Shown here piece by piece: positions 575 through 15,211 of a DNA stretch of 32,597 bases; the stretch's first letter is position 1, and each line of letters begins with the position of its first letter. This DNA comes from an uncultured Lachnospiraceae bacterium (GTDB taxonomy: Bacteria > Bacillota > Clostridia > Lachnospirales > Lachnospiraceae), in the NCBI GenBank assembly GCA_946491665.1, contig CAMLYL010000034.1, forward strand, positions 1 to 32,597, in the 5' to 3' direction. Both the position numbers and the translations under genes were made by a program. The notes beneath the pieces were generated by a model. The model did not search any database. It saw only the letters and a program-made list of their open reading frames with translations, and was not told the origin of the DNA.

Positions 575-810
575 TATCAATAGAAAGCGCAGGTCATGAA
601 TCTGACCATAAGGGTTAACCTGAAGGGAAAGACAAGTGAGTGTGACAGCGAATGATTCTGGTGATAGTTTCGGAGTTTCCGTGTGCCGGCTGGCGTGCAG
701 GAGATCCGGATACAGACGGAAGATGTTGCCCTTGTACCCATTTGCAGGTACAGGGGTTTTCTTTTTTCTGAGCGCCCTTTCATCGGCCTGCAGTAAAAGG
801 AGGAATACAT
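575..810 (+). promoter_or_regulatory. Long 5' leader of hydF, candidate attenuator or riboswitch
   Basis: About 235 bases separate the inferred transcription start from hydF, with no convincing coding frame. Local pairing is visible: GGTCA/TGACC at about 592-607, CGGA/TCCG around 671-680, and TTCCGT near 677-682 with ACGGAA near 715-721, enclosing a GCCGGCTGGC mini-hairpin. A strong intrinsic terminator sits at the 3' end, before the ribosome binding site. A promoter, structured leader, terminator and gene in this order are the usual layout of a transcription-attenuating riboswitch. I could not match it to the box sequences of the cobalamin, SAM, TPP, FMN, lysine, glycine, c-di-GMP or T-box classes by eye. 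Confidence 0.45.
729..767 (+). terminator. Intrinsic terminator in the hydF leader
   Basis: A ten-base-pair stem (729-738 with 747-756, one G.U pair) with an eight-base loop is followed directly by TTTTCTTTTTT at 757-767. It lies downstream of the promoter at 539-568 and 43 bases upstream of the hydF start. Unless it is conditionally disrupted, it should block hydF transcription. It could instead end a roughly 190-nt independent small RNA. Confidence 0.75.
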
Positions 811-2010
811 ATGGGACTGAATAGTACGCCATCCGCAAACAGGATCCACATTGGATTTTTCGGGAGAAGGAATGCAGGAAAGTCGAGCGTTGTGAATGCT
901 GTGACAGGACAGGATCTGGCGGTGGTATCCGAGGTTAAGGGCACAACAACAGATCCGGTTTACAAATCCATGGAGCTTCTGCCTCTGGGTCCGGTGGTGA
1001 TTATCGACACCCCCGGTTTTGATGATGAGGGAGCGCTGGGAGAGCTGCGGGTAAAAAAGACGAAACAGGTGCTGAATAAAACAGATGTGGCAGTCCTTGT
1101 AGTAGATGCTTCTGCGGGACTTCTGCAGTGCGACCGGGAGCTGATTGATCTTTTTCAGAAGAAAGAAATTCCCTATGTTATCGTATATAATAAGGCGGAC
1201 CTGCTGGAAGAGATAAAAGAATTAGAAAGCGAGGAGATTTATGTCAGCGCGCTGAATGGACAGGGAATCTATGAATTAAAGGAAAAAATCGGCAGTACCG
1301 TGGAGATGGACAGTGAGAAAATGCGGATTATCGGAGATCTGATCCGTCCGCTGGATTTTGTGGTTCTGGTGGTTCCCATTGATTCCGCCGCTCCCAAAGG
1401 GCGGCTGATTCTTCCCCAGCAGCAGACGATCCGGGATGTGCTGGAGGCAGGCGCGGCAGCCATTGTTGTGCGGGAATCAGAGCTGAAGGATACGCTGGAG
1501 AAGCTGTCCGGGAAGCCGGCTGTGGTTGTTACTGACAGCCAGGTTTTTTCTCAGGTTGCCGCAGTTGTGCCGGATGATGTTCTGCTGACTTCTTTTTCGA
1601 TTCTCATGGCCAGATATAAGGGGTTTCTGGATGCGGCGGCAGAGGGTGTCTGTGCCATCAGCCGTCTTGAGGATGGGGATACGGTTCTGATTTCCGAGGG
1701 GTGTACGCATCACAGACAGTGTGATGATATCGGAACGGTGAAACTCCCCCGGTGGCTGCGGGAGTATACGGGTAAGGACATTCATATAAAGACCAGCTCC
1801 GGCACGGAATTTCCGGAGGATCTGTCTCCTTATAAGCTGGTAATTCACTGCGGCGGCTGTATGCTGAATGAGCGTGAGATGAGATATCGTATGAAATGTT
1901 CGGCAGACCAGGGAATCCCTTTTACCAATTATGGAACTGCGATTGCGTATATGAAGGGAATTCTCAAAAGAAGCGTGAAGATATTTCCGCATCTTTATGA
2001 CAGACTTTAA
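811..2010 (+). CDS. hydF: HydF, [FeFe]-hydrogenase H-cluster maturation GTPase
   Basis: HydF is the GTPase and scaffold that carries the precursor of the [2Fe] subcluster and delivers it to apo-[FeFe] hydrogenase HydA. The N-terminal G domain shows the P-loop GRRNAGKS (residues 18-25), a GTTTDP G2 motif, DTPGFDD (G3) and YNKAD (G4). The C-terminal part carries the iron-sulfur motif C298-x-H300 and H346-C347-xx-C350, which fits the family pattern CxHx(44-53)HCxxC. Its 399 residues are the usual length. The ATG at 811 follows AAGGAGG at 797-803. It is the first gene after the attenuator-like leader and is 47 bases ahead of a NifH-like gene. HydE and HydG, its radical-SAM partners, are not in this window, so they must be elsewhere or HydF has another role here. 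Confidence 0.95.
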
Positions 2011-2057
2011 CCAGAAGGGAGATATCTGCCACTGTCGGGGCGGCGGATACAGACAGA

Positions 2058-2798
2058 ATGAAAAAGATAGCGATTTACGGAAAAGGCGGCATCGGAAAGT
2101 CCACGATTGTTTCCAATATGGCTGCGGCTCTGGCGCTGAAGGGATACCGCGTACTGCAGATCGGGTGTGATCCCAAAGCGGATTCCACCATTGCCCTTCG
2201 GCACGGGGAAGCGCTCCCCACAGTGCTGGAAACTTTTCGGAAGAAGAAAAATAATTTTGAGCTGGATGAAATTGTACGGATCGGTTACGGCGGCGTGATC
2301 TGTGCTGAGGCGGGAGGCCCCATTCCCGGAATGGGATGTGCCGGACGGGGAATTATTACTGCCCTGGAAAAAGCAGAAGAAAAGGGGATTTATGAGAGAT
2401 TCCAGCCGGACATTGTATTTTATGACGTGCTGGGAGATGTGGTCTGCGGCGGGTTTTCCATGCCCATGCGAAGCGGCTATGCGGATCAGGTGTATATTGT
2501 TTCCTCCGGTGAAAATATGTCGATCTATGCGGCGGCAAATATTGCGGCGGCCATTGAGAATTTCAGGGGGCGGGGATACGCGGAACTGGGAGGAATTATT
2601 CTGAACCGCAGGAATGTAAAAAATGAGGATGCAAAGGTGCAGGAACTGTGCAGTGACTTCCACACCGGAATTGTGGGAGCCATTGATTTTTCAGAGCTGG
2701 TACAGGAGGCGGATGACCGCCGCGTAACGCTGATGGAGGCTTATCCGGAAAGCGCTCAGGCTGACGCCTACCGCGTTCTTGCGGAAAAAATGCTGTGA
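2058..2798 (+). CDS. NifH-like nitrogenase iron-protein homologue, first copy
   Basis: This is a homodimer-type ATP-dependent reductase of the NifH/BchL/CfbC family, which donates electrons from a bridging [4Fe-4S] cluster to a NifDK-like partner. Seen are the P-loop GKGGIGKS (residues 8-15), CDPKADST switch region, the cluster ligands Cys94 in GMGCAGRG and Cys130 in DVVCGGF, and the [10 protein letters not shown] switch II segment. At 246 residues it is shorter than NifH (about 290) and lacks the long C-terminal extension. The ribosome binding site before ATG 2058 is weak, which suggests coupling to hydF. The partner is presumably the D/K-like pair directly downstream. It is not true NifH by context: no nifB/E/N genes are near. 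Confidence 0.88.
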
Positions 2799-2901
2799 TA
2801 TGATCTCCGTTTCCGGAAACTGCGGAAAGGGAATCGGAGGCTGATCAGGCGGAGAAGATAGGAGAAAGGGTCCGGAGTTTTCCGGATACGGGAAAGAATT
2901 T

Positions 2902-4230
2902 ATGTTGAAAAGAGTCGGAGAAGAACGGAATACGGAGGGCGTTAAAATTCCTGTCAGAGAGGCTTCCTTTCCGGCTCCCTTCCGGGAGGGACTGGAGTAC
3001 AGTTCTCCGGCCCGGGGAAACTGGAATATTGTTCACACCGGAATGCTGATACCGGAGTCGCATCAGATTTTTGTCTGTGCTCTGGGATGTCTGCGGGGAG
3101 TGGTGCTGACAGCGGCGGAGATGAATGCCCTGGACCGGTATTCGGCGATTCAGATCCGTGAAGAAAATGTGCTGGACGGTGGCATGGAAGAGCTGATGAT
3201 TGACGGTGTGACAGATATCATTGAAAAGCTGAGATACAGGCCAAAGGCGATTCTGCTGTTTATCAGCTGCCAGCACTTTTTTCTGGCTTATGACCAGAAG
3301 CTGGTGTTTTCTGTTTTGCGGGAACGTTTTCCCGATATAAAATTTGTAGATTGTTATATGATTCCCACCCTTCGGAAAAGCGGCCTGACGCCGGATCAGA
3401 AGATGCGGATCCAGATGTACCGTATGTGGGAGCCGCGGCCGGTGAAAGAGAAAAAGGTGAATCATATCGGCAGCAATCTGCAGATCTCTCCGACCTGCGA
3501 ACTGGTTTCAATGCTTGAAAATGCCGGATATGAATGGTGGGATCTGCATCGGTGCAGAACATTCCAAGACTATATGAATATGGCAGAGTCCGCGCTGAAT
3601 CTGGCTTATGAACCCATGGCGATACCGGCGGCGGAAGATCTGAAAAAACGTCTCGGGCAGGATTATCTGTATCTGACTTTCAGTTTTGATTTTGAGGAGC
3701 TGGAAGAAAATTATGACAGGCTGGCGAAGAAGCTGGGAATACAGAAACCGGATTTTTCAGAATTAAAAAGCAGGGCGCGGCAGGCGCTGATTCACGCCAG
3801 AGAGGTGATCGGCGATACTCCTGTGGCGGTGGATTACACCTTTACGTTCCGGATTTTAAGCTTTACGCGGATGCTGCTGGAGTATGGTTTCCATGTGGCG
3901 GAAATTTATGCGGACAGCTTTTTGCCGGAGGATGAAGAAAACTTTTACTGGATCCGGGAAAATTATCCGGAAATTGTGGTGTCTGCCACCAATCGGCCCG
4001 GGATGCGTTTCCAGTATGAACACGGAGAGGGAACAGCGCTGGCGGTTGGGCAGAAGGCGGCTTACTTTACCGGAACCGATCACTTTGTAAATGTGGCGGA
4101 AAGCGGCGGCTATTACGGATTTGACGGCATCATTCAGATCGCGGAGCTGCTGGAAGATGCGTATTTTAATAAAAAAGACAGAAAGGCCCTGATTCAGAAA
4201 AAGGGATATGGTTGCGAGAGCTGTATATGA
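2902..4230 (+). CDS. Nitrogenase component 1-like protein (NifD-type half), first set
   Basis: This 442-residue protein belongs to the Oxidored_nitro (nitrogenase component 1) family. Candidate cluster ligands are Cys59 and Cys63 in HQIFVCALGCLRGVVL and Cys123 in LLFISCQHFF, which correspond in order to the second and third P-cluster cysteine regions of NifD. The first NifD-type cysteine is not evident; that stretch reads PARGNWNIVHTGMLIPESH. The FeMo-cofactor ligand pair of NifD cannot be recognised. The C-terminus ends in CESCI, a possible extra thiol site. The stop overlaps the next start as ATGA, so it is translationally coupled to the K-like gene. It probably forms the heterodimer served by the NifH-like protein upstream. 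Substrate unknown. Confidence 0.82.
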   Translation: MLKRVGEERNTEGVKIPVREASFPAPFREGLEYSSPARGNWNIVHTGMLIPESHQIFVCALGCLRGVVLTAAEMNALDRYSAIQIREENVLDGGMEELMIDGVTDIIEKLRYRPKAILLFISCQHFFLAYDQKLVFSVLRERFPDIKFVDCYMIPTLRKSGLTPDQKMRIQMYRMWEPRPVKEKKVNHIGSNLQISPTCELVSMLENAGYEWWDLHRCRTFQDYMNMAESALNLAYEPMAIPAAEDLKKRLGQDYLYLTFSFDFEELEENYDRLAKKLGIQKPDFSELKSRARQALIHAREVIGDTPVAVDYTFTFRILSFTRMLLEYGFHVAEIYADSFLPEDEENFYWIRENYPEIVVSATNRPGMRFQYEHGEGTALAVGQKAAYFTGTDHFVNVAESGGYYGFDGIIQIAELLEDAYFNKKDRKALIQKKGYGCESCI

Positions 4231-5417
4231 AACAGGTATCGGGATTGATTTCAACATATTCATCCGATGAGTTCGGCATCTGTTCTGCGCTGTTTGAACT
4301 GGGCGGAATGGTGGTGATGCACGATGCCTCCGGATGTAATTCTACATATACGACCCATGATGAGCCCCGGTGGTATGATATGGACAGTATGATTTTCATT
4401 TCTGCCATTTCCGAATCAGAGGCAATTATGGGAGATGACGACAAGTTTATCGGAGATCTGATTGAGACTGCGGAAGAACTGCATCCGAAGTTTATTGCGC
4501 TGGTGGGGGCGCCGATTCCCTATATGATCGGAACCGATCTGAAGGCAATCGCGTCGATTGTCAGCCGGGAGACAGGAATTCCCTGTTTCGGCTTTCCGGC
4601 AAACGGGATGCATGCTTATACAACGGGGATTTCCATGGCGCTGGAAAAAATTGCGGAAGAATTCGGCGGCGTCATTTCAGGAGAGAACCGGGAAAACAGC
4701 CGGGTAACTGTGAATATCCTGGGCGCCACGCCTCTGGATTTTTCTGTGAACGGCAGTGTGGAATCTTTAAAATGCTGGATCAGGGAGCATGAAATGAATC
4801 CGGGAGTCAGCCTGGCAATGGGCTGTACACTGGAGGATCTTGGACGGCTGGGAAATGCCGATGTGAATCTGGTGGTTTCCTATGGAGGTCTGGCGGCAGC
4901 AAGGGTGCTGGAAGAACGATTTGGCACCCCTTATGTAACAGGGGTGCCTTTTGGCGAAGCCTTCGGGGACCGGCTGGCGGCAATGCTGAAACAGGCTGCG
5001 GCGGCAAAGGTGAATTACTGCGGTTATCAGAGGCTGGAAACAGAGAACTGCGGCGGACAGTATGAAGGAGAAAAGCAGAGCAGTACGGTCATTATCGGTG
5101 AGAGCGTTTTCTGCGGATCTCTGGCGGAAGCCATAGAGCTGGATACGGGGATTCCCGTGAAGCTTTTGTGTCCTCTGGACACAGAAAACCGGCTGTTAAG
5201 GAGCGGGGATCTGGAAACGCCTGAGGAGGATGATCTGATCCGTGAGATCAAAAATGCAGATATCGTCATCGGAGATCCGCTGTACCGGGCGCTCGCAGAT
5301 GGAAAGCAGTTTTATGAACTGCCCCATGAGGCGTTTTCCGGAAGAATTTACGACAGAGTGAATCCGGATCTGATCGGGAAAAAGATAGGAAAAGATGAGG
5401 GGATAGAAGAATGTTAA
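4227..5417 (+). CDS. Nitrogenase component 1-like protein (NifK-type half), first set
   Basis: I place the start at ATG 4227 because it forms an ATGA overlap with the preceding stop; a TTG at 4212 is also in frame. The 396-residue product has Cys19 ([14 protein letters not shown]) and Cys37 ([10 protein letters not shown]), then DEPRW. Where NifK has its third P-cluster cysteine, this protein reads [11 protein letters not shown] without cysteine. [10 protein letters not shown] and [19 protein letters not shown] are shared almost block for block with the second K-like protein at 7457-8548, showing that the two are paralogues. It should pair with the D-like protein upstream. The end overlaps the next NifH-like gene by seven bases. 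Confidence 0.82.
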
Positions 5418-6172
5418 AGTTAGCGATTTATGGAAAGGGAGGAATCGGCAAATCGACCACCACGGCAAATCTGGCAGCGGCCTTTTCCGTTCTCGGGAAA
5501 AAGGTCATCCAGATCGGGTGTGATCCCAAGGCGGATTCCACCATTAATCTGCTGGGCGGCAATCCGCTGCTGCCGGTGATGAATTATATCCGGGAACACG
5601 ATGAGGAACCGGAAAAAATTGAGCAGATTGCAAAGAAGGGATTCGGCGGCGTTCTCTGCATTGAGACCGGAGGTCCCACGCCGGGCCTGGGCTGCGCCGG
5701 CCGGGGAATTGTCACCACGTTCAGTCTGCTGGAAGATCTGGAATTATTTGAGACATATGAGCCGGATGTGGTGCTCTATGATGTGCTGGGAGACGTGGTC
5801 TGCGGAGGTTTTGCCGCGCCGATCCGGGAGGGATATGCAGAGCGGGTGCTGATTGTTACTTCCGGAGAGAAGATGGCTCTTTACGCGGCCAACAACATCA
5901 ATACAGCGGTGAAAAATTTTGAGGACCGGGGCTATGCCACAGTGGGAGGAATTATTTTAAACCGCAGAAACGTGGAAAACGAATACGAAAAGGTCAGTGC
6001 TTTTGCAGAGGAAAACGGACTGGAAATCATCGCAGATATTCCCAGAAGTCAGGACATTATCCGGTTTGAAGACCAGGGAAAGACGGTGATTGAGGGGGAT
6101 CAGAGCCTTCCTGTGAGCCAGACGTACCTGGAGCTGGCGAGGCGTCTTTTGAAGGAGGATACCAATGAGTAA
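5411..6172 (+). CDS. NifH-like nitrogenase iron-protein homologue, second copy
   Basis: This 253-residue Fe protein has the P-loop GKGGIGKS (8-15), CDPKADST, [4Fe-4S] ligands Cys95 (GLGCAGRG) and Cys131 (DVVCGGF), and [10 protein letters not shown], closely matching the first copy ([10 protein letters not shown]). The two are clear paralogues that differ mostly after residue 45 and at the C-terminus. It starts inside the end of the K-like gene and overlaps the next D-like gene by eight bases, so the second trio is tightly coupled. A second complete H/D/K set argues for a dedicated reductase per component-1 pair rather than a shared Fe protein. Confidence 0.88.
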
Positions 6173-7460
6173 GGATGTATATTATATAAGGGCGGAGGAG
6201 CTCGCAGCTCTGGGAAAGGATCGTGTCCCTGACGAGCTGCAGTCCTCAAAGCATTTGATTTACAGTTCTCCTGCCACGCTGGCGTTTAATTCCCCGGGAG
6301 CCCAGGGCTTCGGCGTGAAGCGGGCAGGGCTGGCGATTCCGGGATCTGTGATGCTTCTGGTGGCCCCCGGCTGCTGCGGAAGAAATACCATGATGTTGAA
6401 TGAGATCGGCTATGCGGAGCGTTTCTTTTATCTGCTCCAGGATGAGACAGATATTGTGACGGGACGCCATTTGAATAAAATACCGAAAGCGGTGAAGGAA
6501 GTGGTGGAGGCCTGTGAAGAGCGGCCGACGGCAGTGATGATCTGTATTACCTGTGTGGATGCGCTGCTGGGAACGGATATGGACCGTGTCTGCCGGAAGG
6601 CTTCTGAATATGCAGGGGTGCCTGTCCTGCCCTGTTATATGTACGCGCTGACCAGGGAGGGCCGGGTGCCGCCCATGACATCCGTGAGAAAGACGGTATA
6701 TCAGCTTCTGGAAAAACGTCCCCGGAAAAAGAATGTGGTGAATCTGCTGGGAGAGTTTGCGCCGTTCCGGGATTCCTGTGAGCTGTATGATATTTTGAAA
6801 AAGCTGGGCATCGAGAAAGTGAATGAGATTTCCAGATGTGAAAGTTTTGAAGAATACCAGGCCATGTCTGAGGCAAATTTCAATATTGTGCTGAATCCGG
6901 AAAGCCGTCTGGCGGCAGAGGATTTTAAGAAGCGGCTGGGAATTCCTTCTCTGGAACTGACGCGGGTATATCAGATTGACAAAATTAAAAAGCAGTATGA
7001 GTTATTTGGCGCGGCTCTCGGTGTGGAAATTGATGACAGCGCTTATTATCAGGAAGCCATGGCGGCTGTCCGGGATTTCTCAAAAGCATACCCGGGGAGA
7101 ACCTTTGTGGTAGGCGAATGGCTGAACGCGGATCCTTTCGAGCTGTCTCTGGCGCTGCTGCGGTACGGTCATAATGTTCCGGAGATTTACGGAACTATTA
7201 CAAATGTGAATTTTGTATATATCAGAAAAATAGCGGCCATCAGTCCGGATACGAGGATTTATACGAATCTGTCTCCGACTATGCTGAATTACAACTGCTC
7301 CGCATGTCAGGCGGATATTTCCATCGGACAGGATGCGGCTTATTATCATCCGGACTGTGTCAATGTCCCCTGGAACGATGAAAATATGCCTTTTGGGTAT
7401 GCGGGGCTCAGGGATCTTTTCCTGGAGCTTGGAAATGCAATGGAAGGAGCCGGAAAATGA
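6165..7460 (+). CDS. Nitrogenase component 1-like protein (NifD-type half), second set
   Basis: This 431-residue Oxidored_nitro-family protein has an N-terminal block [19 protein letters not shown], then the cysteine pair Cys70-Cys71 in [10 protein letters not shown] and Cys127/Cys130 in [12 protein letters not shown]. These align in order with the second and third P-cluster cysteine regions of NifD. It is only distantly similar to the D-like protein of the first set, much more diverged than the H and K pairs are from each other, so the two complexes probably act on different substrates or at different steps. [10 protein letters not shown] near residue 370 adds two cysteines (NCSAC). It overlaps H by eight bases and K by four (ATGA). 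Confidence 0.82.
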
Positions 7461-8548
7461 AAGGATTATTGAAATATTTATCTCCCTTTGCGCCGGATCA
7501 GTCGGGAGCGGTCTCTGTGTTTTATGAGCTGGGCGGCATTACGGTGATCTGCGACGCGGGAGGATGTACGGGAAATATCTGCGGGTTTGACGAACCCCGC
7601 TGGTTTCTGGAAAAAAGCGCCCTGTTTTCGGCAGGGCTGAGAGATATGGACGCGATTCTCGGAAGGGACGACCGTCTGATTGAAAAGCTGCAGGATGCGG
7701 CTTCCCGCCTGGATGGAAAGTTTGCGGCCCTTATCGGGACTCCGGTTCCCGCAGTGATTGCCACAGATTTTAAGGCTTTAAAGCGGATGGCCGAAAAACG
7801 CTGCGGCATGCCGGTGATGACCGTGGAGTGCACCGGAACCCGGATGTATGACCGGGGCGAGGAAGATGCCTACATGGAGTTGTTCCGGACTTTTGCCGGC
7901 AAAGATGTCTTCCAGGCGGAAACCGTCCGTACTGCAGGTGTAATCGGGGCAACACCCCTGGATACAAGCCATGTGAGGGCAGGAAAAATTATCAGCAGGC
8001 GCCTGAAGGAGCAGGGATATGATGAGGTGTACTGTTATGGGATGGGAGCCGGTCTGGAGGAAGTGAAAAAGGCCGGGAATGCTGAGCGGAATTTCGTGGT
8101 TTCTCCTGCCGGAATCCGGGCGGCGAGATACCTGGAGAGGGAATTCGGCACACCCTGGGAGACCGCTTATCCCATGCTGCGGCGGGAATGGAGGGAACAG
8201 CTGCGGGGACTTGCGTCCAAAAAGGTTCTGATTGTGCATCAGCAGATAGCGGCAAATGAAATCCGCCGGGAGATCCGGTCGGAGATTGGGCGGAATGAAG
8301 GCTGCCGGAGCGCTTCAGAGAGGAATATTATCTGCGGCACCTGGTTTATGCAGCATCCGGAGTTTGGCGAACCCCAGGATGTGACTTTTGAGAGGGAAGA
8401 GCAGTTTGCCGATTATGTAAAACAGGAGCAGTTTGATGTGATTATCGGGGATCAGATGCTGAAGCGGGCGCTTGGAAAATACTCCGGCGGGTTTATCCAT
8501 ATTCCGCATTTTGCTGTATCAGGAGAGTATGAAGAAGATATCTTCTAA
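7457..8548 (+). CDS. Nitrogenase component 1-like protein (NifK-type half), second set
   Basis: The product is 363 residues, shorter than the first-set paralogue (396). The N-terminus carries Cys32, Cys37 and Cys42 in CDAGGCTGNICGFDEPRWF, against Cys37 only in that block of the first copy. The position of the third NifK P-cluster cysteine reads LIGTPVPAVIATD, again without cysteine. VIGATPLDTS and AARYLEREFGTPW match the first-set protein. The start forms an ATGA overlap with the D-like stop. Twelve bases separate its stop from hypF, so the nitrogenase-like genes and the Hyp genes are very likely on one transcript. Confidence 0.82.
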   Translation: MKGLLKYLSPFAPDQSGAVSVFYELGGITVICDAGGCTGNICGFDEPRWFLEKSALFSAGLRDMDAILGRDDRLIEKLQDAASRLDGKFAALIGTPVPAVIATDFKALKRMAEKRCGMPVMTVECTGTRMYDRGEEDAYMELFRTFAGKDVFQAETVRTAGVIGATPLDTSHVRAGKIISRRLKEQGYDEVYCYGMGAGLEEVKKAGNAERNFVVSPAGIRAARYLEREFGTPWETAYPMLRREWREQLRGLASKKVLIVHQQIAANEIRREIRSEIGRNEGCRSASERNIICGTWFMQHPEFGEPQDVTFEREEQFADYVKQEQFDVIIGDQMLKRALGKYSGGFIHIPHFAVSGEYEEDIF

Positions 8549-8560
8549 GTTATTTCAGAC

Positions 8561-11023
8561 ATGAAACAGGTATTGAATGAAACGATTACTACAAAAATTA
8601 TAAGAGTGTACGGTATTGTCCAGGGCGTGGGATTCCGGCCTTTTGTCAGCCGGACGGCGGACCGGATCGGCGTGACCGGAAGCGTTGCCAACAAGGGCTC
8701 CTATGTGGAGATATATGTTCGCGGTGATGACGGCAGACAGAGGGAATTCCGTGAAGCGCTGGAGCATGAGGCTCCGGAGCGGTCGGCGATTCTGAAAATT
8801 GATGTTCATGACTGTGAGGACAGGGCGTTTTCCGGATTTGATATTATTGAGAGCGAAAGGGAAACGGGCGACATTTTCGTGTCGCCGGATATTGCTACCT
8901 GCCCCAGGTGCAGAGCGGAACTTTTTGATCCGAAAAACCGACGATATATGCATCCGTTTATCAACTGCACAGCCTGTGGTCCCCGGCTGACCATACTGGA
9001 TGCCATGCCCTATGACCGGGAGAGGACCAGTATGAAGGAATTTCCCATGTGTCCGGCCTGTGAGTATGAGTATACCCACGCTGAGACCCGGCGGTATGAC
9101 GCCCAGCCGGTCTGCTGCAATGACTGTGGTCCCGAGGTGTATCTGCTGGGAAGGCCTGAACGGGGAAGGGAGGCGATCACCTGTGTCCGGAAAGCGATCC
9201 GGGAGGGACAGATTATCGCCGTCAAGGGAATCGGCGGATTTCACCTCTGCTGTGATGCCCGCAATGAACGGGCGGTTGCCCGTCTGCGGCAGCTGAAACA
9301 CCGTCCCGCCAAGCCCTTCGCTGTTATGATGCGGGATCTGGATGCAGTGAGAAGATACTGCCGCGTGTCTCCCGGGCAGGAAGAGATTCTGGACGGTCAT
9401 CAGAAACCGATTATATTGCTGGAGAAACGAAACTTTGCGGAAGAAGAAAACGGAGGATCGGACGCGGGAGAATCCGGATCCGGGAAAATGAAAGATTCCG
9501 GAGCGGGCTCCGGTCTGGCGCCTTCCGTGGCTCCGGACAATCCGGGGATTGGCGTAATGCTTCCCTATGCGCCGGTGCAGATGCTGCTGTTTGATTATGA
9601 TGATGATGTCACTATGATCACTGACTGCTTTGTCATGACCAGCGGAAATGTGTCCGGCGCCCCGATCTGCCGTACAGACGAAGATGCCGCGAAAGAGTTA
9701 TCCGGGTTCTGTGATATCATTTTATCCCATAACCGGAAGATCCGGCTGCGGGCAGATGATTCTGTTATGGATTTTTACGAAGAGGAGCCTTACATGATCC
9801 GCCGCTCCAGAGGCTATGCGCCTCTTCCCGTTATGATGAGCGGGGAGCTGAAAGGACAGGTGCTGGCAGTTGGCGGTGAGCTGAAAAATACTTTCTGCAT
9901 CGGGAAGAATCAGCTGCTGTATCTGTCTCCCTATGTTGGAGATATGGCGGATCCCCGGACGGTGGCCGCTCTGGAGGAGTCGATTGTCCGGATGGAGGAG
10001 CTGCTGGAAACAGAGCCGGAGCTGGCTGTCTGTGATCTGCATCCAAAGTATAATACGACTATTGTGGCGGAGGAGCAGGGGATTCCGGTCATGAAGATTC
10101 AGCACCATTATGCCCATATTTTATCCTGTATGGCGGAAAATGATGTGCCGCTGACAGAAAAAGTAATCGGTGTTTCCTTTGACGGAACCGGATATGGAAC
10201 AGATGGGACGATCTGGGGAGGAGAGATTCTTCTGGCAGATTACCATTCTTTCCGGCGGCTGGGAAGTATTTATCCTTTCCTCCAGATCGGCGGAGATGCG
10301 TCTGCGAAGGAAGGGTGGAGAATCGCAGTATCCATGATCAATGCCCTGTATCCGGAAAACGCTTCTGAAATTACTGAGAAGCTGGAACTCTGTGAAGCGC
10401 AGATGCAGAAGCTCTATCTGCAGATGGCGGCCCGGGGAATCAACAGCGTGGTTTCCACCAGCGCCGGCCGGCTGTTTGACGCGGTCAGCGCTATTCTGGG
10501 AGTGCGGAGGAAGTCCTCCTTTGAAGGGGAGGCGTCCACGACGCTTCAGTTCCGGGCGGAGGAATATGAGAAGCATCTCCACTCCGGCGGGACGGATCCG
10601 GTCCGGGAGATGGAACCGTGGCTTCGGGAACTGCAGAACTCTGCGGCAGATGCCTCCCGGAATGAAAAGCCGGAGGAGAGCAGATTTTACCTCCCCACAG
10701 ACCGACTGGTGCGGATGCTGGTGGAACTGAAAATGTCGGGAGAAGATGTCCGAAGGCTGGCGTATTTCTTCCATCTGGCCCTGGCGGCACAGATCCGGGA
10801 GGGATGCCGTGAGGCATCGCGGATTTCGGGAGTGAAGTCCTGTGCCTTAAGCGGCGGCGTATTTCAGAACCGGCTGCTGCTGAAGCTCTGCGATCAGATG
10901 CTGCGGGAGGATGGATTTACAGTATACCGCCACAGTCTGATTCCGCCCAATGACGGCGGTCTGGCTCTGGGGCAGGCGGTGTTCGGAATGGTTTATCTGA
11001 ATGAGAACAAATCATGTCAGTGA
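8561..11023 (+). CDS. hypF: HypF, carbamoyltransferase for cyanide-ligand synthesis
   Basis: HypF turns carbamoyl phosphate and ATP into a carbamoyl adenylate and passes the carbamoyl group to the C-terminal cysteine of HypE, the first step to the CN ligands of [NiFe] hydrogenases. All domains are visible: acylphosphatase motif VQGVGFRPFVSR (20-31), two zinc-finger-like repeats (CPRC...CTAC about 112-138 and CPAC...CNDC about 165-188), a YrdC-like domain (about 200-385), and a Kae1-like domain with KIQHHYAH near residue 513. At 820 residues it exceeds the usual 750 or so. Part of the excess is a Gly/Ser-rich insert at about 290-326 within the YrdC-like region. All key motifs are intact, so it looks functional. 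It follows the second K-like gene by 12 bases. Confidence 0.96.
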   Translation: MKQVLNETITTKIIRVYGIVQGVGFRPFVSRTADRIGVTGSVANKGSYVEIYVRGDDGRQREFREALEHEAPERSAILKIDVHDCEDRAFSGFDIIESERETGDIFVSPDIATCPRCRAELFDPKNRRYMHPFINCTACGPRLTILDAMPYDRERTSMKEFPMCPACEYEYTHAETRRYDAQPVCCNDCGPEVYLLGRPERGREAITCVRKAIREGQIIAVKGIGGFHLCCDARNERAVARLRQLKHRPAKPFAVMMRDLDAVRRYCRVSPGQEEILDGHQKPIILLEKRNFAEEENGGSDAGESGSGKMKDSGAGSGLAPSVAPDNPGIGVMLPYAPVQMLLFDYDDDVTMITDCFVMTSGNVSGAPICRTDEDAAKELSGFCDIILSHNRKIRLRADDSVMDFYEEEPYMIRRSRGYAPLPVMMSGELKGQVLAVGGELKNTFCIGKNQLLYLSPYVGDMADPRTVAALEESIVRMEELLETEPELAVCDLHPKYNTTIVAEEQGIPVMKIQHHYAHILSCMAENDVPLTEKVIGVSFDGTGYGTDGTIWGGEILLADYHSFRRLGSIYPFLQIGGDASAKEGWRIAVSMINALYPENASEITEKLELCEAQMQKLYLQMAARGINSVVSTSAGRLFDAVSAILGVRRKSSFEGEASTTLQFRAEEYEKHLHSGGTDPVREMEPWLRELQNSAADASRNEKPEESRFYLPTDRLVRMLVELKMSGEDVRRLAYFFHLALAAQIREGCREASRISGVKSCALSGGVFQNRLLLKLCDQMLREDGFTVYRHSLIPPNDGGLALGQAVFGMVYLNENKSCQ

Positions 11024-11076
11024 AAGCGCTGAACAGATATAAAAGTATATATAATTAAGACGAGGAGGATATTGAT

Positions 11077-11283
11077 ATGTGTGTAGGACTTGCGGCAAAG
11101 GTAGTCGGCATGAAAGACGGAATGGCGGTTGTGGACGCGTCCGGGGCAAAGCGGGAAGTATCTGTGGAACTGCTGGATGAGCTGGAGCCCGGTGACTACG
11201 TGATGGTTCACGCGGGGATCGCTATTGCAAAAATTGACGGAGATGACGAGAGCGAGGCAGAGGATATTATCGGGCTGCTGTAA
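11077..11283 (+). CDS. hypC: HypC/HupF family [NiFe]-hydrogenase maturation chaperone
   Basis: HypC forms the HypCD complex on which the Fe(CN)2CO unit is built, and then carries it to the hydrogenase large subunit. The 68-residue product starts MCVGLAAKV with the essential Cys2, has GDYVMVHAGIAI with the conserved His of the OB-fold, and an acidic C-terminal tail. The usual proline of the N-terminal motif (MCxxxP) is Ala here, a departure from most family members. The ATG follows a strong GAGGAGG. It lies 53 bases after hypF and 104 bases before hypD, in the family's common order. Confidence 0.92.
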   Translation: MCVGLAAKVVGMKDGMAVVDASGAKREVSVELLDELEPGDYVMVHAGIAIAKIDGDDESEAEDIIGLL

Positions 11284-11387
11284 TCATCGAAAAGCGAATA
11301 AAAGTAAGAATGAAAAAGTGATCTGGTATTTGCCGGCTGCTGTGAACGCCGGCAGTCTGATATTTCAGTATCACGGATAGGAGCAGC

Positions 11388-12437
11388 ATGGAAGATACAA
11401 TCAAAAAAGCAAGGGATATCATAGAGAATTATAACGGCCCGAAGCTTCGGATTATGGAAGTGTGCGGTACACATACCCATGAGATTTTCCGTCTGGGGAT
11501 CCGTAAAATACTTCCGGAAAATATAGAACTGATTTCAGGACCGGGATGTCCGGTCTGTGTAACGCCGGTAGATTTTATTGACGAGGCGATTTACCTGGCG
11601 CTGGAAAAGGGAGTTACAGTCTGTACATTCGGAGATCTGATCCGGGTGCCGGGAACAAAGATGAGTCTGGGAGAAGCCCGGGCGGAAGGCGCTGATGTGA
11701 AAATCGTTTATACTCCTCTGGATGCAGTGACCATTGCCCGGGAGAATCCGGAAAAGCAGGTGGCTTTTCTGGCGGTGGGATTTGAAACGACCACTCCGGC
11801 GGTCTGTCTCGCGGTAAAGAAAGCGAAGGAGGCGCAGCTGGATAATTTTTCTGTTCTGACTGCCAACAAAACCATGCCGAACGCTTATCAGGCGCTGAAA
11901 GGCAGCGCGGACGCGTTCCTTTATCCCGGGCATGTAAACGCCATTACCGGAGAGGCGGAATGCCGGAAGCTGGCTGAAGAAGGCGTGTCCGGCGTAATTG
12001 CCGGATTTACGGCGAAAGAGCTTCTGACGGCTCTGGCTGTGATCATTGAAAAATCAAAAGAAGGAAAGCCTTTTTTTGTAAACTGTTATCCCAGAGTCGT
12101 CCGTCCGGAAGGGAATCCTGCCGGAATGCGCATGATTGACCAGATGATGGAGCCCTGTGATTCTCAGTGGAGAGGGCTGGGCGTGATTCCCGGATCCGGG
12201 CTGAAGCTGAGAAAAGAATATGAGGCTTATGACGCCCGGCTGAAATATCTGGTGCCGTCCATGAATGGAAAGCCCAATCCGGCCTGCCGCTGCGGAGATG
12301 TGCTGCAGGGGAAATGCAAACCGTCCGACTGCAGGGTGTTTGGGACGGCCTGTACGCCGCAGCATCCCATCGGAGCCTGCATGGTTTCCAATGAGGGAAG
12401 CTGCTCGGCTTATTATCAGTATGGGATGAATGCGTAG
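11388..12437 (+). CDS. hypD: HypD, Fe(CN)2CO scaffold iron-sulfur protein
   Basis: HypD holds a [4Fe-4S] cluster and redox-active cysteines and is the scaffold on which iron receives CN and CO. Seen are CGTHTHE (Cys26), SGPGCPVCVTP (Cys54, Cys57), NCYPRVVRPEGNPAG, and the cysteine-rich C-terminus with CRCGDVLQGKCKPSDC and CTPQHPIGAC. The 349 residues match the family length. The start follows ATAGGAGCAGC. In the 104-base gap before it there is a seven-bp TGCCGGC/GCCGGCA hairpin at 11331-11354 without a T-run. It is the core partner of HypC and HypE in the same operon. Confidence 0.96.
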   Translation: MEDTIKKARDIIENYNGPKLRIMEVCGTHTHEIFRLGIRKILPENIELISGPGCPVCVTPVDFIDEAIYLALEKGVTVCTFGDLIRVPGTKMSLGEARAEGADVKIVYTPLDAVTIARENPEKQVAFLAVGFETTTPAVCLAVKKAKEAQLDNFSVLTANKTMPNAYQALKGSADAFLYPGHVNAITGEAECRKLAEEGVSGVIAGFTAKELLTALAVIIEKSKEGKPFFVNCYPRVVRPEGNPAGMRMIDQMMEPCDSQWRGLGVIPGSGLKLRKEYEAYDARLKYLVPSMNGKPNPACRCGDVLQGKCKPSDCRVFGTACTPQHPIGACMVSNEGSCSAYYQYGMNA

Positions 12438-12533
12438 CGGGACGGGAAGACGGCGGACCCGAAAAAGATCAGACGCGGCTTCCGGGAAGAAACTGCCGGG
12501 GCCGAAGCGTGCAAAATCAGCGGAGGATTTGTT

Positions 12534-13541
12534 ATGACAGAGAAAAAAGTAACTCTGGCTCATGGAGCCGGAGGAAAACAGACATCAGAATTAATACATG
12601 AAGTATTTCAGGAACACTTTTCTAATCCGGAGTTTACAGCGGACGATGCGGCTATTTTAAATGTGGGAGACGGGAAAATTGCCATGTCCACGGATGGATT
12701 TATCGTATCGCCGTTTGAATTTAACGGAGGAAATATCGGAAAACTCAGCATCTGCGGGACCGTCAATGACCTGGCCTGCATGGGCGCAAAGCCCCTGTAC
12801 CTGACCTGCTCTTTTATCATTGAAGAGGGATTTTCCATGGATAAGCTGGAGGAGATCGCCGCCAGTATGGAGAAAACGGCAAAAGAGGCCGGAGTCAGGA
12901 TTGTCGCCGGAGATACAAAGGTGGCCGGAAAAGGTCAGGTGGACAACATTTTTATTACTACTGCCGGAATCGGCAGGCTGACAGAAGGCGTTTCCACCTC
13001 GGGAGCTTTTGCGAAGCCGGGGGATGCGATTCTTGTAACCGGTGATATCGGGCGGCACGGATGTACAATTCTTCTTGCCAGAGAGGATCTCGGCATTGAG
13101 GCGGACATTAAAAGCGACTGTGCGCCTCTGTGGGGAACAGTAGAGTCTATGATTCAGACTACAAAGGATATTCATGTGATCCGCGACGCCACCAGAGGCG
13201 GTGTGGGAACCGTGCTCTATGAAATTGCGGCGGAAAGTAATGTCGGCATTCGTATTCACAGTGATGCTGTTCCTGTAGATCCGGCTGTGAAGGGCGTCTG
13301 CGGGATGCTGGGACTGGATCCTCTGTATCTTGCCAATGAAGGAACGCTGGTGGTGATTGCGCCAAAAGAACAGGCAGAATCTTTGCTTGCGGTGCTGAGA
13401 CAGGGAAAATACTCCGCCAATGCGGCAATCATCGGCGAGATTACGGATTCTCTGCCGGGAAAAGTGGTGGTGACAACAGAGATCGGCGCGGAGACGCTGC
13501 TTCCGCAGCCGGGAGGAGAACTGCTGCCCCGGATCTGCTGA
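12534..13541 (+). CDS. hypE: HypE, thiocarbamate dehydratase that forms the cyanide group
   Basis: HypE (AIR-synthase/PurM fold) dehydrates its S-carbamoylated C-terminal cysteine to a thiocyanate in an ATP-dependent step and hands CN to HypCD. The N-terminal LAHGAGGKQT and DDAAIL metal/ATP-binding segments, VAGDTKV, and the hallmark C-terminal PRIC (Cys335, the acceptor) are all present. With the intact tail the CN pathway looks complete from carbamoyl phosphate. GGAGG at 12522-12526 precedes the ATG. It is the last gene of the run; hypA and hypB (nickel insertion) do not follow, and a new promoter starts at 13608. Confidence 0.96.
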   Translation: MTEKKVTLAHGAGGKQTSELIHEVFQEHFSNPEFTADDAAILNVGDGKIAMSTDGFIVSPFEFNGGNIGKLSICGTVNDLACMGAKPLYLTCSFIIEEGFSMDKLEEIAASMEKTAKEAGVRIVAGDTKVAGKGQVDNIFITTAGIGRLTEGVSTSGAFAKPGDAILVTGDIGRHGCTILLAREDLGIEADIKSDCAPLWGTVESMIQTTKDIHVIRDATRGGVGTVLYEIAAESNVGIRIHSDAVPVDPAVKGVCGMLGLDPLYLANEGTLVVIAPKEQAESLLAVLRQGKYSANAAIIGEITDSLPGKVVVTTEIGAETLLPQPGGELLPRIC

Positions 13542-13607: not shown

Positions 13608-13636
13608 TTGACAATACAGTTATTATACGATATAAT
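13608..13636 (+). promoter_or_regulatory. Consensus sigma-70/SigA promoter upstream of the CNNM-family gene
   Basis: TTGACA at 13608-13613 and TATAAT at 13631-13636 with a 17-base spacer make a perfect consensus promoter. It lies 66 bases after hypE. The start site would be near 13643. What it transcribes first is a short unit with a ribosome binding site, a tiny ORF and a long hairpin, and only then the membrane protein gene at 13859. Confidence 0.85.
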
Positions 13637-13675
13637 CCATCTCAGTATTTTGCAGAAGGAGGACGATCATACATA

Positions 13676-13777
13676 ATGGACGATTGCGACAGTGACGCTA
13701 ACCCTGATCGAACAAACAATGTATTAAATTGTTTCTATTATATAAAAATAAGACATGATCTGTGTATCTCCGTCTGA
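13676..13777 (+). CDS. Possible 33-residue small protein or leader peptide
   Basis: The 316-base gap between hypE and the CNNM gene holds a possible small ORF. ATG at 13676 follows GAAGGAGGA at about 13655-13664 with a 12-base gap, and reads MDDCDSDANPDRTNNVLNCF and on to a TGA at 13775-13777. The stop lies in the loop of the hairpin at 13750-13794, so ribosomes would cover the left arm of that hairpin. This is what a leader-peptide attenuator would look like, but there is no run of one amino acid to point to a regulator, and the peptide resembles no family I know. The ORF may be chance. Confidence 0.3.
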   Translation: MDDCDSDANPDRTNNVLNCFYYIKIRHDLCISV

Positions 13778-13805
13778 TACACGGATCATGTCTTATGCCG
13801 TTTTT
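13750..13805 (+). terminator. Long hairpin, probable terminator or attenuator before the CNNM gene
   Basis: Bases 13750-13768 pair with 13776-13794 over 19 base pairs with a single G.U, leaving a seven-base loop. On the plus strand a TTTTT follows only after six bases (13801-13805), so termination may be partial. On the minus strand a T-rich stretch follows directly. With the promoter at 13608 it would give a transcript of about 155 nt. Confidence 0.6.
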
Positions 13806-13858: not shown

Positions 13859-15211
13859 ATGGGTAATTCCATAGGTTTACTATTATTGCTGCAGGTGGTG
13901 CTGATTGCACTGAATGCCGTTTTTGCCAGCGCCGAGATTGCAGTCTTATCAATTAATGAAACAAAACTGGAGCGGACAGTGGAAGAAGGCGATATCCGGG
14001 CGAAGCGGCTGTTCCGCCTGACACAGGAGCCTGCGAAGTTTCTGGCAACGATTCAGGTTGCGATTACATTATCCGGATTTCTCGGAAGTGCCTTTGCGGC
14101 AGATAATTTTTCCGAGCCCCTGGTAGAATGGCTGGTGGGACTGGGCGTAAAAATTCCCCGTTCTACGCTGTCTACCATTGCGGTAATCCTGATTACGATT
14201 ATTCTGTCTTATTTTACACTTGTTTTCGGAGAACTGGTTCCGAAGCGGATTGCAATGAAAAAGTCTGAGCAGCTTGCCATGAAAATCTCAGGTCTGGTCA
14301 GCGCCATTTCAGTAGCTTTTAAACCGGTGGTATGGTTCCTTTCTGTTTCAACAAATGTGGTGCTGCGTATATGCGGGATTGATCCCAATGAAGCCGAAGA
14401 GGAGGTCAGTGAGGAAGAGATCCGGATGCTGGTGGACGCGGGCAGCGCAAAGGGCATTATCGCGTATCAGGAGAAGGAATTTATTCAGAATGTATTTGAA
14501 TTTAATGATACCACTGCCGGTGAGATTGCAACTCACCGGACGGAGGTGGCGATTCTGTGGCTGGATGATGGAGAGGATACCTGGGCGGAGACAATTCATG
14601 AGAGCCGTCATACCCGGTATCCGGTATGCGACGGGTCTCCTGACAATGTGGTGGGCATTCTGAATGCCAAGGACTATTTCCGTCTGGAGGATAAAACAAA
14701 AGAGAACATTCTTGCCACATCGGTGCGGCCGGCCTATTTTGTTCCCGAGACCATCAAGGCTGACGTGCTGTTCCGGAATATGCAGAAAAGCAGAACTGCC
14801 ATGGCTGTTGTTCTGGATGAATACGGCGGCATGGTAGGTGTGATTACCCTGTTTGACCTGGTGGAGGAGCTGGTGGGCGAACTGAATGATGAGCCCGACG
14901 ATCCTCAGAATATGGATCCCTATATCGAACAGACCGGTGAGAATACCTGGGATGTTTTCGGCAATGTGGAATTATCTGATATTGAAGATGCTCTGGGAAT
15001 TGAGATTGAATCCGCTTCGGATGTAGATACATTTACAGGTCTTGTCTTTGACGCCCTTGGCATGATTCCGGCTGAAGGTCCTCAGAGTATTGATCTGGAG
15101 ATTCAGAATATGATGATTCATATCAGCAGCATTGCGGAACATCAGATTGAAACGGCAGCAATTATATTGAAAAAAGAAGAAGCTGAAACAGCGGCTGAGG
15201 AAGAGCGGTAA
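13859..15211 (+). CDS. CNNM/CBS/CorC-domain membrane protein (hemolysin family, TlyC/HlyC-like)
   Basis: The 450-residue protein has an N-terminal CNNM (DUF21) membrane domain with hydrophobic segments at about 5-28, 58-80 and 98-125 and the NAVFASAEIAVLS motif. A CBS-domain pair follows (about 205-330, with TRYPVCDGSPDNVVGILNAKD and VVLDEYGGMVGVITLFDL), then a CorC_HlyC transporter-associated domain (about 345-430). Family members are linked to magnesium or other divalent cation efflux; the hemolysin label is historical. AGAAAGAGG precedes the ATG. It stands alone between its own promoter and a terminator-like hairpin. Confidence 0.9.
   Translation: MGNSIGLLLLLQVVLIALNAVFASAEIAVLSINETKLERTVEEGDIRAKRLFRLTQEPAKFLATIQVAITLSGFLGSAFAADNFSEPLVEWLVGLGVKIPRSTLSTIAVILITIILSYFTLVFGELVPKRIAMKKSEQLAMKISGLVSAISVAFKPVVWFLSVSTNVVLRICGIDPNEAEEEVSEEEIRMLVDAGSAKGIIAYQEKEFIQNVFEFNDTTAGEIATHRTEVAILWLDDGEDTWAETIHESRHTRYPVCDGSPDNVVGILNAKDYFRLEDKTKENILATSVRPAYFVPETIKADVLFRNMQKSRTAMAVVLDEYGGMVGVITLFDLVEELVGELNDEPDDPQNMDPYIEQTGENTWDVFGNVELSDIEDALGIEIESASDVDTFTGLVFDALGMIPAEGPQSIDLEIQNMMIHISSIAEHQIETAAIILKKEEAETAAEEER

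Follow-up and report, generated by a model that had tools for sequence, protein, structure and literature searches.

Gene organization of the locus

The window analysed here, a stretch of 32,597 nucleotides (bases 1-32597 of contig C34) from the genome of an uncultured Lachnospiraceae bacterium (GCA_946491665.1; 3.35 Mb, 171 contigs, 84% complete), carries a locus in which two sets of nitrogenase-like genes, designated H1-D1-K1 and H2-D2-K2, lie between hydF and four hyp genes. The eleven intact genes, all on the forward strand at 811-13541, are arranged in the order hydF, H1, D1, K1, H2, D2, K2, hypF, hypC, hypD, and hypE. The eleven co-directional genes described in an earlier note on this DNA were confirmed as present and intact, with the family-profile scores given below.

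HydF, the scaffold GTPase for the H-cluster of [FeFe]-hydrogenases, is encoded at 811-2010 (TIGR03918, 576 bits; cut-off, 326) and is the sole HydF above the cut-off in the genome. H1 (2058-2798; PF00142, 291 bits) and H2 (5411-6172; PF00142, 301 bits) are NifH-like Fe proteins. D1 (2902-4230) and D2 (6165-7460), both matching PF00148, are nitrogenase component 1-like subunits, with K1 (4227-5417) and K2 (7457-8548) as their respective partner subunits. The four component 1-type proteins scored 60-108 bits with PF00148; K1 (106.6 bits, scored on 4212-5417) and K2 (68.9 bits) were also assigned by family alignment. The start of K1 was set at ATG 4227, the position with which most starts in the family line up, and not at TTG 4212. 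The hyp genes encode HypF (8561-11023; TIGR00143, 721 bits; cut-off, 466), the carbamoyltransferase of the first step of CN ligand synthesis; HypC (11077-11283; PF01455, 78.5 bits), a scaffold chaperone for the Fe(CN)2CO unit; HypD (11388-12437; TIGR00075, 402 bits; cut-off, 193), the scaffold of that unit; and HypE (12534-13541; TIGR02124, 429 bits; cut-off, 252), which ends in a C-terminal cysteine (LLPRIC). Neighbouring genes overlap by 4 (D1/K1), 7 (K1/H2), 8 (H2/D2), and 4 nt (D2/K2), and 12 nt separate K2 from hypF; these measured spacings agree with those given in the earlier note (overlaps of 4-8 bases and a gap of 12 bases). Gaps of 47-104 nt are present at HydF/H1, at H1/D1, and inside HypF-C-D-E.

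Relationship to known nitrogenase-like proteins

The P-loop was found in 72 of 72 H1 and 36 of 36 H2 sequences, and the cluster cysteine motifs are retained in 71 and 72 of the 72 H1 and in all 36 H2 sequences. With the NifH model, H1 and H2 scored 318 and 308 bits, respectively, against a cut-off of 394, and no D or K protein exceeded 76 bits, the nifD, nifK, and nifE cut-offs being 427 or higher. Further comparisons included 309 bits for H1 with CfbC (cut-off, 402), 215 bits for H2 with BchL (345), and 75.5 bits for D2 with NifE (505), and the window proteins lie below the curated cut-offs for dark-operative protochlorophyllide oxidoreductase (DPOR), chlorophyllide oxidoreductase (COR), and CfbCD (NCBIfam) as well as NifEN. 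DPOR, COR, CfbCD, and methylthio-alkane reductase resemble the locus reductases in their Fe-protein-driven reduction; to our knowledge, however, none of them is tied to hydrogenase or Hyp genes. In structure predictions (mean predicted local distance difference test score, 81 for D1 and 82 for D2), both subunits show the nitrogenase component 1 fold, which they share with the DPOR and methylthio-alkane reductase structures. Like NifEN and the nitrogenases, each set combines a NifH-like Fe protein with a component 1-fold pair, and the D1 and D2 profiles match NifE first among the PDB sequences.

In phylogenetic trees, D1, D2, and distant relatives linked to ATP-binding cassette (ABC) transporter genes grouped in one clade (100/99) to the exclusion of NifD and NifE, and K1, K2, and their relatives in another (100/100) that excludes NifK and NifN. 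The close D1 sequences formed a clade of their own (100/100), as did H1 and H2, with the NifH references apart; the long-branch warnings concerned plasmid references. The tree check proposed in the earlier note therefore placed the D, K, and H proteins of both sets in clades distinct from the references used. Because D1 clades with D2 and K1 with K2, the sets seem to have arisen by an old duplication inside one new branch. Nitrogen fixation and the known nitrogenase-like activities were rejected as functions of the locus, given scores far under the cut-offs and the separate clades.

Invariant cysteines were C59, C63, C123, and C151 in D1, C37 in K1 (with C19 in 94%), C70, C71, C127, C130, and C143 in D2, and C37 and C42 in K2. 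Nitrogenase has six P-cluster cysteines and the FeMo-cofactor ligands Cys275 and His442; in a comparison by eye without residue superposition, the full set of these ligands was not seen. The invariant cysteine sets of the D/K pairs, which seem to differ from those of nitrogenase, could hold a bridging cluster.

The close D1 sequences are nested among ABC-linked homologues, namely those of L116-L118, L127, and the Treponema plasmid L132. In these five loci (L116, L117, L118, L127, and L132, the last on a Treponema saccharophilum plasmid), an H-D-K set stands with a haem/iron-type ABC importer, and the reductase may act on an imported compound. Plasmid pSPTER of Sporomusa termitida (L135) carries genes for iron ABC permeases and an ATPase, followed by a distant NifH-D-K-like set.

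Two modules and their neighbours

A pattern search of the genome collection yielded 316 stretches with D1 relatives, and the locus counts refer to the best 80, fetched with their flanks, from Lachnospiraceae, other Clostridia, Erysipelotrichia, Lentisphaeria, Synergistes, and Megamonas. The locus recurs in many anaerobes as two modules, i.e. module A (H1-D1-K1) and module B (H2-D2-K2-HypF-HypC-HypD-HypE), the latter present in 41 of the 80 loci. Recurrence in dozens of genomes puts the arrangement far outside what chance would give, and a chance neighbourhood in one strain was ruled out. The synteny of nif-like and hyp genes anticipated in the earlier note is thus found across genomes as H2-D2-K2-HypFCDE and is not peculiar to this strain. 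Its view of a single joint locus holds for the tie between H2-D2-K2 and HypFCDE but not for module A, which is separable and also occurs without Hyp genes, an ABC importer taking their place.

Of the 80 loci, 74 encode one or more of HydE, HydF, and TM1266, the other six being contigs of 7.5 kb or less. A family search beside module A identified HydE (528 bits; cut-off, 255) and the iron-only hydrogenase regulator TM1266 (107 bits; cut-off, 61). A haem/Fe/B12-type ABC transporter also recurs there, and aspartate ammonia-lyase (AspA) is encoded in a few loci; a published article covers the ammonia-lyase link of hyd operons (PMC11736057). Module B and the ABC importer are alternatives next to H1D1K1: an ABC binding protein or permease was found in 33 loci and module B in 41, with both in none and neither in six (P = 1e-16 on raw locus counts, kinship ignored). 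In two Clostridium-type loci, H1 and D1 are joined in one reading frame (L046, 9236-11332, 698 codons; L047, from Clostridiaceae bacterium BL-3, 9212-11332, 706 codons), with the P-loop and the D1 motif in both frames and the Pfam NifH domain in L046, which argues that H1 and D1 work together.

Exchange of H1D1K1 with HydG

The CO and CN ligands of [FeFe]-hydrogenases are held to come from HydG, which cuts tyrosine. The window genome encodes seven [FeFe]-hydrogenase H-domains, the single HydF, and a HydE (G000:C15:11231-12247; 563.7 bits), and no HydG above the cut-off of 312 bits was found in this 84% complete assembly, the matches scoring 185.7 and 65.8 bits. More broadly, [FeFe]-hydrogenase was present in 60 of 61 genomes searched, the sole miss being a 1.2-Mb bin.

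The exchange was counted in a sample of 195 genomes of the window's class (completeness of at least 95% requested; window genome included), of which 126, 134, and 135 encode HydG, HydF, and HydE, respectively, above the cut-off. The D1 profile matched at 498-768 bits in ten genomes (close D1), at 313-351 bits in four, and at 58-71 bits in two. Among the 134 HydF genomes, ten contain close D1 and no HydG, none contains both, two contain neither, and 122 contain HydG alone (P = 1.8e-13). All ten close-D1 genomes encode HydE and HydF above the cut-off. Since five families (f1, f34, f36, f53, and f56) include both close-D1 and HydG genomes, and genus g50 includes four genomes with close D1 and no HydG and two with HydG and no D1, the exchange has occurred more than once. 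HydG is also absent from 46 of the 50 genomes behind module-A loci and was found in none of the 29 module-B genomes searched. The replacement of HydG by H1D1K1 is well supported genomically: the close set, with D1 as its marker, is found where HydG is missing and HydE, HydF, and [FeFe]-hydrogenases are kept.

The earlier note had suggested that the locus acts on one new metallocofactor. This is not supported, because the exchange of H1D1K1 for HydG, with HydE and HydF retained, points to the known H-cluster, reached by a new route; a genome that lacks HydG and keeps HydE and HydF must obtain the CO and CN ligands otherwise. A different, new Fe-CO/CN metallocofactor for another enzyme, with hyd genes nearby through shared regulation or iron demand, is unlikely. 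Such a cofactor would suit the non-hydrogenase context of the distant ABC-linked relatives, and the fact that we know of no pathway joining NifDK-like and Hyp proteins was counted for it; however, it fails on the lack of HydG in all ten close-D1 class genomes, with HydE and HydF kept, and in 46 of the 50 others, and leaves the exchange within genus g50 unaccounted for.

A divergent HydG escaping the model was considered and rejected: full-length HydG above the cut-off scored at least 475 bits and fragments at least 319, ThiH-like matches scored at most 228, and 24 of the 50 module-A genomes and seven of the ten class genomes lack even these. The best HydG-model match was at most 85 bits in the 24 and no better than about E = 4e-24 in the seven. 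Because HydE alone scores at that level (51 bits for one HydE), no disguised tyrosine lyase remains in these genomes. The same genomes bear on another explanation, in which a ThiH-like radical S-adenosylmethionine (SAM) enzyme, or free CO and CN, does the job of HydG and the role of the reductases is limited to reducing or repairing HydE, HydF, or the clusters of these proteins. ThiH-level matches (166-228 bits), present in the window genome and in 22 of the 46 locus genomes without HydG, agree with it, as does the activation of HydA to about 1% by HydE and HydF alone with stray diatomics, described in PMC9431212. We nevertheless consider it very unlikely, since the 24 and seven genomes contain no match above the level of HydE itself, and a repair role explains neither the exchange with HydG nor the presence of HypCDEF without [NiFe]-hydrogenase.

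The haem/Fe/B12-type ABC genes in 33 of the 80 loci, together with the similar H-D-K and ABC sets on Treponema and Sporomusa plasmids, would fit a function of H1D1K1 and H2D2K2 as siderophore, haem, or corrinoid reductases supplying maturation with iron, with an indirect link to HydG loss. This seems scarcely probable, because no such binding protein or permease accompanies the 41 module-B loci, yet none of the 29 module-B genomes has HydG, and a supply of iron alone is no substitute for CO and CN ligands.

Hyp genes without [NiFe]-hydrogenase

HypD was found in 36 of 62 genomes searched (one of them entered twice), exactly those with module B, and 33 of the 36 lack a [NiFe]-hydrogenase large subunit. 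The large subunit had no match in the window genome and was found in three of the 62, in two as a 70-residue stretch, and the contig with the large subunit carried a second HypD each time. HypB above the cut-off was found in nine of 38 genomes, i.e. these three and six others, and not in the window genome; all nine are among the 35 HypD genomes examined for it. The six (G196, G197, G205, G209, G210, and G211) have no large subunit match, so their HypB may serve another nickel enzyme.

The Cys2 and His motif of HypC (MC start and HAG) is kept in 27 of 27 relatives, the HypD cysteine motifs in 29 of 29, and the C-terminal HypE cysteine (PR[VIL]C) in 25 of 26; these motifs are required for Fe(CN)2CO synthesis. 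In HypF, C, D, and E with such motifs, the locus resembles HypA-F-type [NiFe] maturation, but the window genome has neither the large subunit nor HypB above the cut-off, and the genes preceding hypF encode a nitrogenase-like reductase. The missing large subunit led us to reject a role of the locus in [NiFe]-hydrogenase maturation.

A possible route to the H-cluster without HydG

The locus probably stands in for HydG in H-cluster assembly, with the reductases converting an Fe-CN/CO unit, made by HypCDEF or imported, for use by HydE and HydF. Compared with HydE-HydF-HydG maturation, HydF lies in the locus, HydE is encoded elsewhere in the genome, TM1266 and, in a few loci, AspA stand beside the relatives, and the H-cluster product would be the same; the difference is that HydG is absent here and two NifHDK-like sets with HypFCDE are present instead. 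Gene exchange, synteny, and conservation are observed in the genomes; for the chemistry, we infer the following steps.

HydE takes up the Fe(CO)2(CN) unit made by HydG. HypF, E, C, and D would assemble the Fe(CN)2CO unit in the same way as in [NiFe]-hydrogenase maturation, and this unit would have one CN in surplus and be one CO short. H2D2K2, driven by ATP and encoded just before HypF, may make the CO ligand or accept and reduce the HypCD-bound unit. From the Fe(CN)2CO unit the common core, H1D1K1, would produce the kind of Fe(CO)2(CN) species with which HydG otherwise supplies HydE, and HydE and HydF would complete the H-cluster as usual. In module-B genomes, tyrosine would thus not be the ligand source: CN would derive from carbamoyl phosphate, and CO perhaps from CO2; in genomes of the ABC type, an imported equivalent would enter at the H1D1K1 step in place of the module B product. 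Nitrogenases reduce CO2 to CO as a side reaction and also reduce cyanide, which makes two Fe-protein-driven reductases apt for such ligand conversion. The suggestion in the earlier note that Fe(CN)2CO chemistry is joined to Fe-protein-driven reduction remains a good reading in view of the synteny, the separate clades, and the Hyp proteins without [NiFe]-hydrogenase. A more specific version, in which H1D1K1 is an organometallic converter of an Fe(CN)2CO-type species to the HydE substrate, independent of tyrosine and HydG, and gut bacteria without module B import a shared precursor by the haem/siderophore-type ABC transporter, is rather doubtful.

Several observations weigh against a role of the locus in place of HydG. 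Four of the 50 module-A genomes, all of the ABC type, also have HydG (L050 and L056, both Intestinibacter bartlettii, L080, and L085), and the module-A-only genomes have no HypD, so that the source of CN and CO there is unexplained. When all 16 D1-profile matches are counted, HydG occurs in five, all among the six distant or weak ones; the split between close and distant D1 was set post hoc at the score gap (498 vs 351 bits), although the tree agrees with it. The genome-wide HydE and HydF counts refer to the class sample only. Within the stretches taken, no hyd genes were found near the distant ABC-linked relatives, and in G113, which has a distant D1 relative, HydE, HydF, and HydG are all below the cut-off; the wider family therefore has another job. 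The two HydF genomes with neither HydG nor close D1 are G186, whose HydE is only a fragment, and G127, in which TM1266-HydE-HydF (L124, G127:C7) and hydrogenases occur with neither HydG above the cut-off nor D1, reflecting either an assembly gap or a third solution. In the acetogenic Clostridium covered by PMC9431212, C. autoethanogenum has a motif-based HydG, and all except C. autoethanogenum have a radical SAM candidate with atypical motifs that, according to the authors, is possibly HydG.

Promoters and leader RNA of the locus

A full-consensus sigma-70-type promoter (TTGACA-18-TATAAT; 12/12) precedes the locus at 539-568 on the forward strand. The only other 12/12 match lies beyond the locus at 13608-13636, and matches within the locus reached at most 9/12. 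The two hairpins richest in stem pairs, both with T runs, are located at 728-757 and at 13749-13795, the latter a terminator-like hairpin of 20 pairs on the forward strand that possibly ends the unit. The strongest signals lie outside the eleven genes, in agreement with the earlier note, which saw no obvious internal promoter or terminator; the motif scan was noisy over 16 kb (28 promoter-like matches vs 15.5 in shuffles, and 23 terminator-like vs 14.2).

Between the promoter and hydF, a conserved structured 5' leader at 580-768 (forward strand), ending in the terminator-like hairpin 728-757, is a candidate riboswitch or attenuator for hydrogenase maturation. It was aligned across 11 sequences including the window, with a consensus fold of 24 pairs, 4 of which are changed on both sides, and its core UCUGACCAUAAGG...CCUGAAGGGGAAGAC plus the terminator stands before hydF of D1-type maturation operons. 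The other copies are located in L016 (7731-7924), L018 (28-206), L019 (7832-7972), L020 (7211-7389), L021 (7006-7192), L022 (7202-7387), L023 (7798-7926), L024 (7462-7589), L026 (3041-3169), and L028 (4043-4229). In a search of 70 sources, the leader model R1 identified a diverged further copy at 268-398 of L037, before TM1266-H1-D1-K1 (E = 1e-10), and weak look-alikes before or at TM1266 or HydE in L069, L038, and L119 (E = 3e-5 to 0.03). Rfam yielded nothing at gathering score for the window leader, the best match being no better than E = 3.8.

A P-II-like regulator is encoded just upstream of the locus at 122-493 (PF00543, 34 bits), and a relative is also found upstream in L016. Downstream, at 13608-13795, a full-consensus promoter is followed about 110 bases on by the 20-pair hairpin, before a CNNM/CorC-type gene at 13859; these possibly belong to a small RNA or leader.

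Relation to published work and implications

In the available part of PMC9431212, HydG is described as producing CO and CN either bound in an Fe(CO)2(CN) unit or in free diatomic form, and HypCDEF as giving Fe(CN)2CO. Several acetogenic Clostridium with [FeFe]-hydrogenases, HydE, HydF, and HypCDEF are reported there to have no motif-complete HydG and no HypAB. Among those studied, a motif-based HydG was found only in C. autoethanogenum, C. drakei, and C. scatologenes, with HypCDEF in all and HypAB in three only. That part of the article offers hypotheses for the missing HydG and no settled explanation or replacement, and the word 'nitrogenase' occurs in it once, in a reference. By published gene content alone, these acetogens resemble the genomes described here in HydE, HydF, and HypCDEF, and their HydG puzzle fits a HydG substitute by analogy. 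No prior description of the system was found in searches of an open-access library, outside which lie most subscription journals and all bioRxiv preprints.

These results suggest a second, unrecognised way to build the [FeFe]-hydrogenase cofactor in many gut and rumen bacteria without HydG, the novelty lying in the ligand-supplying step because HydE and HydF are the standard ones. If so, nitrogenase-like reductases and Hyp proteins would constitute a new biological way to Fe-CO/CN centres and would bring together the cofactor worlds of nitrogenases and of [NiFe]- and [FeFe]-hydrogenases. This could explain the acetogens without recognisable HydG described in PMC9431212 and could offer new hydrogenase maturation routes in biotechnology, and it would assign a function to uncharacterised nitrogenase-like families of gut and rumen bacteria.

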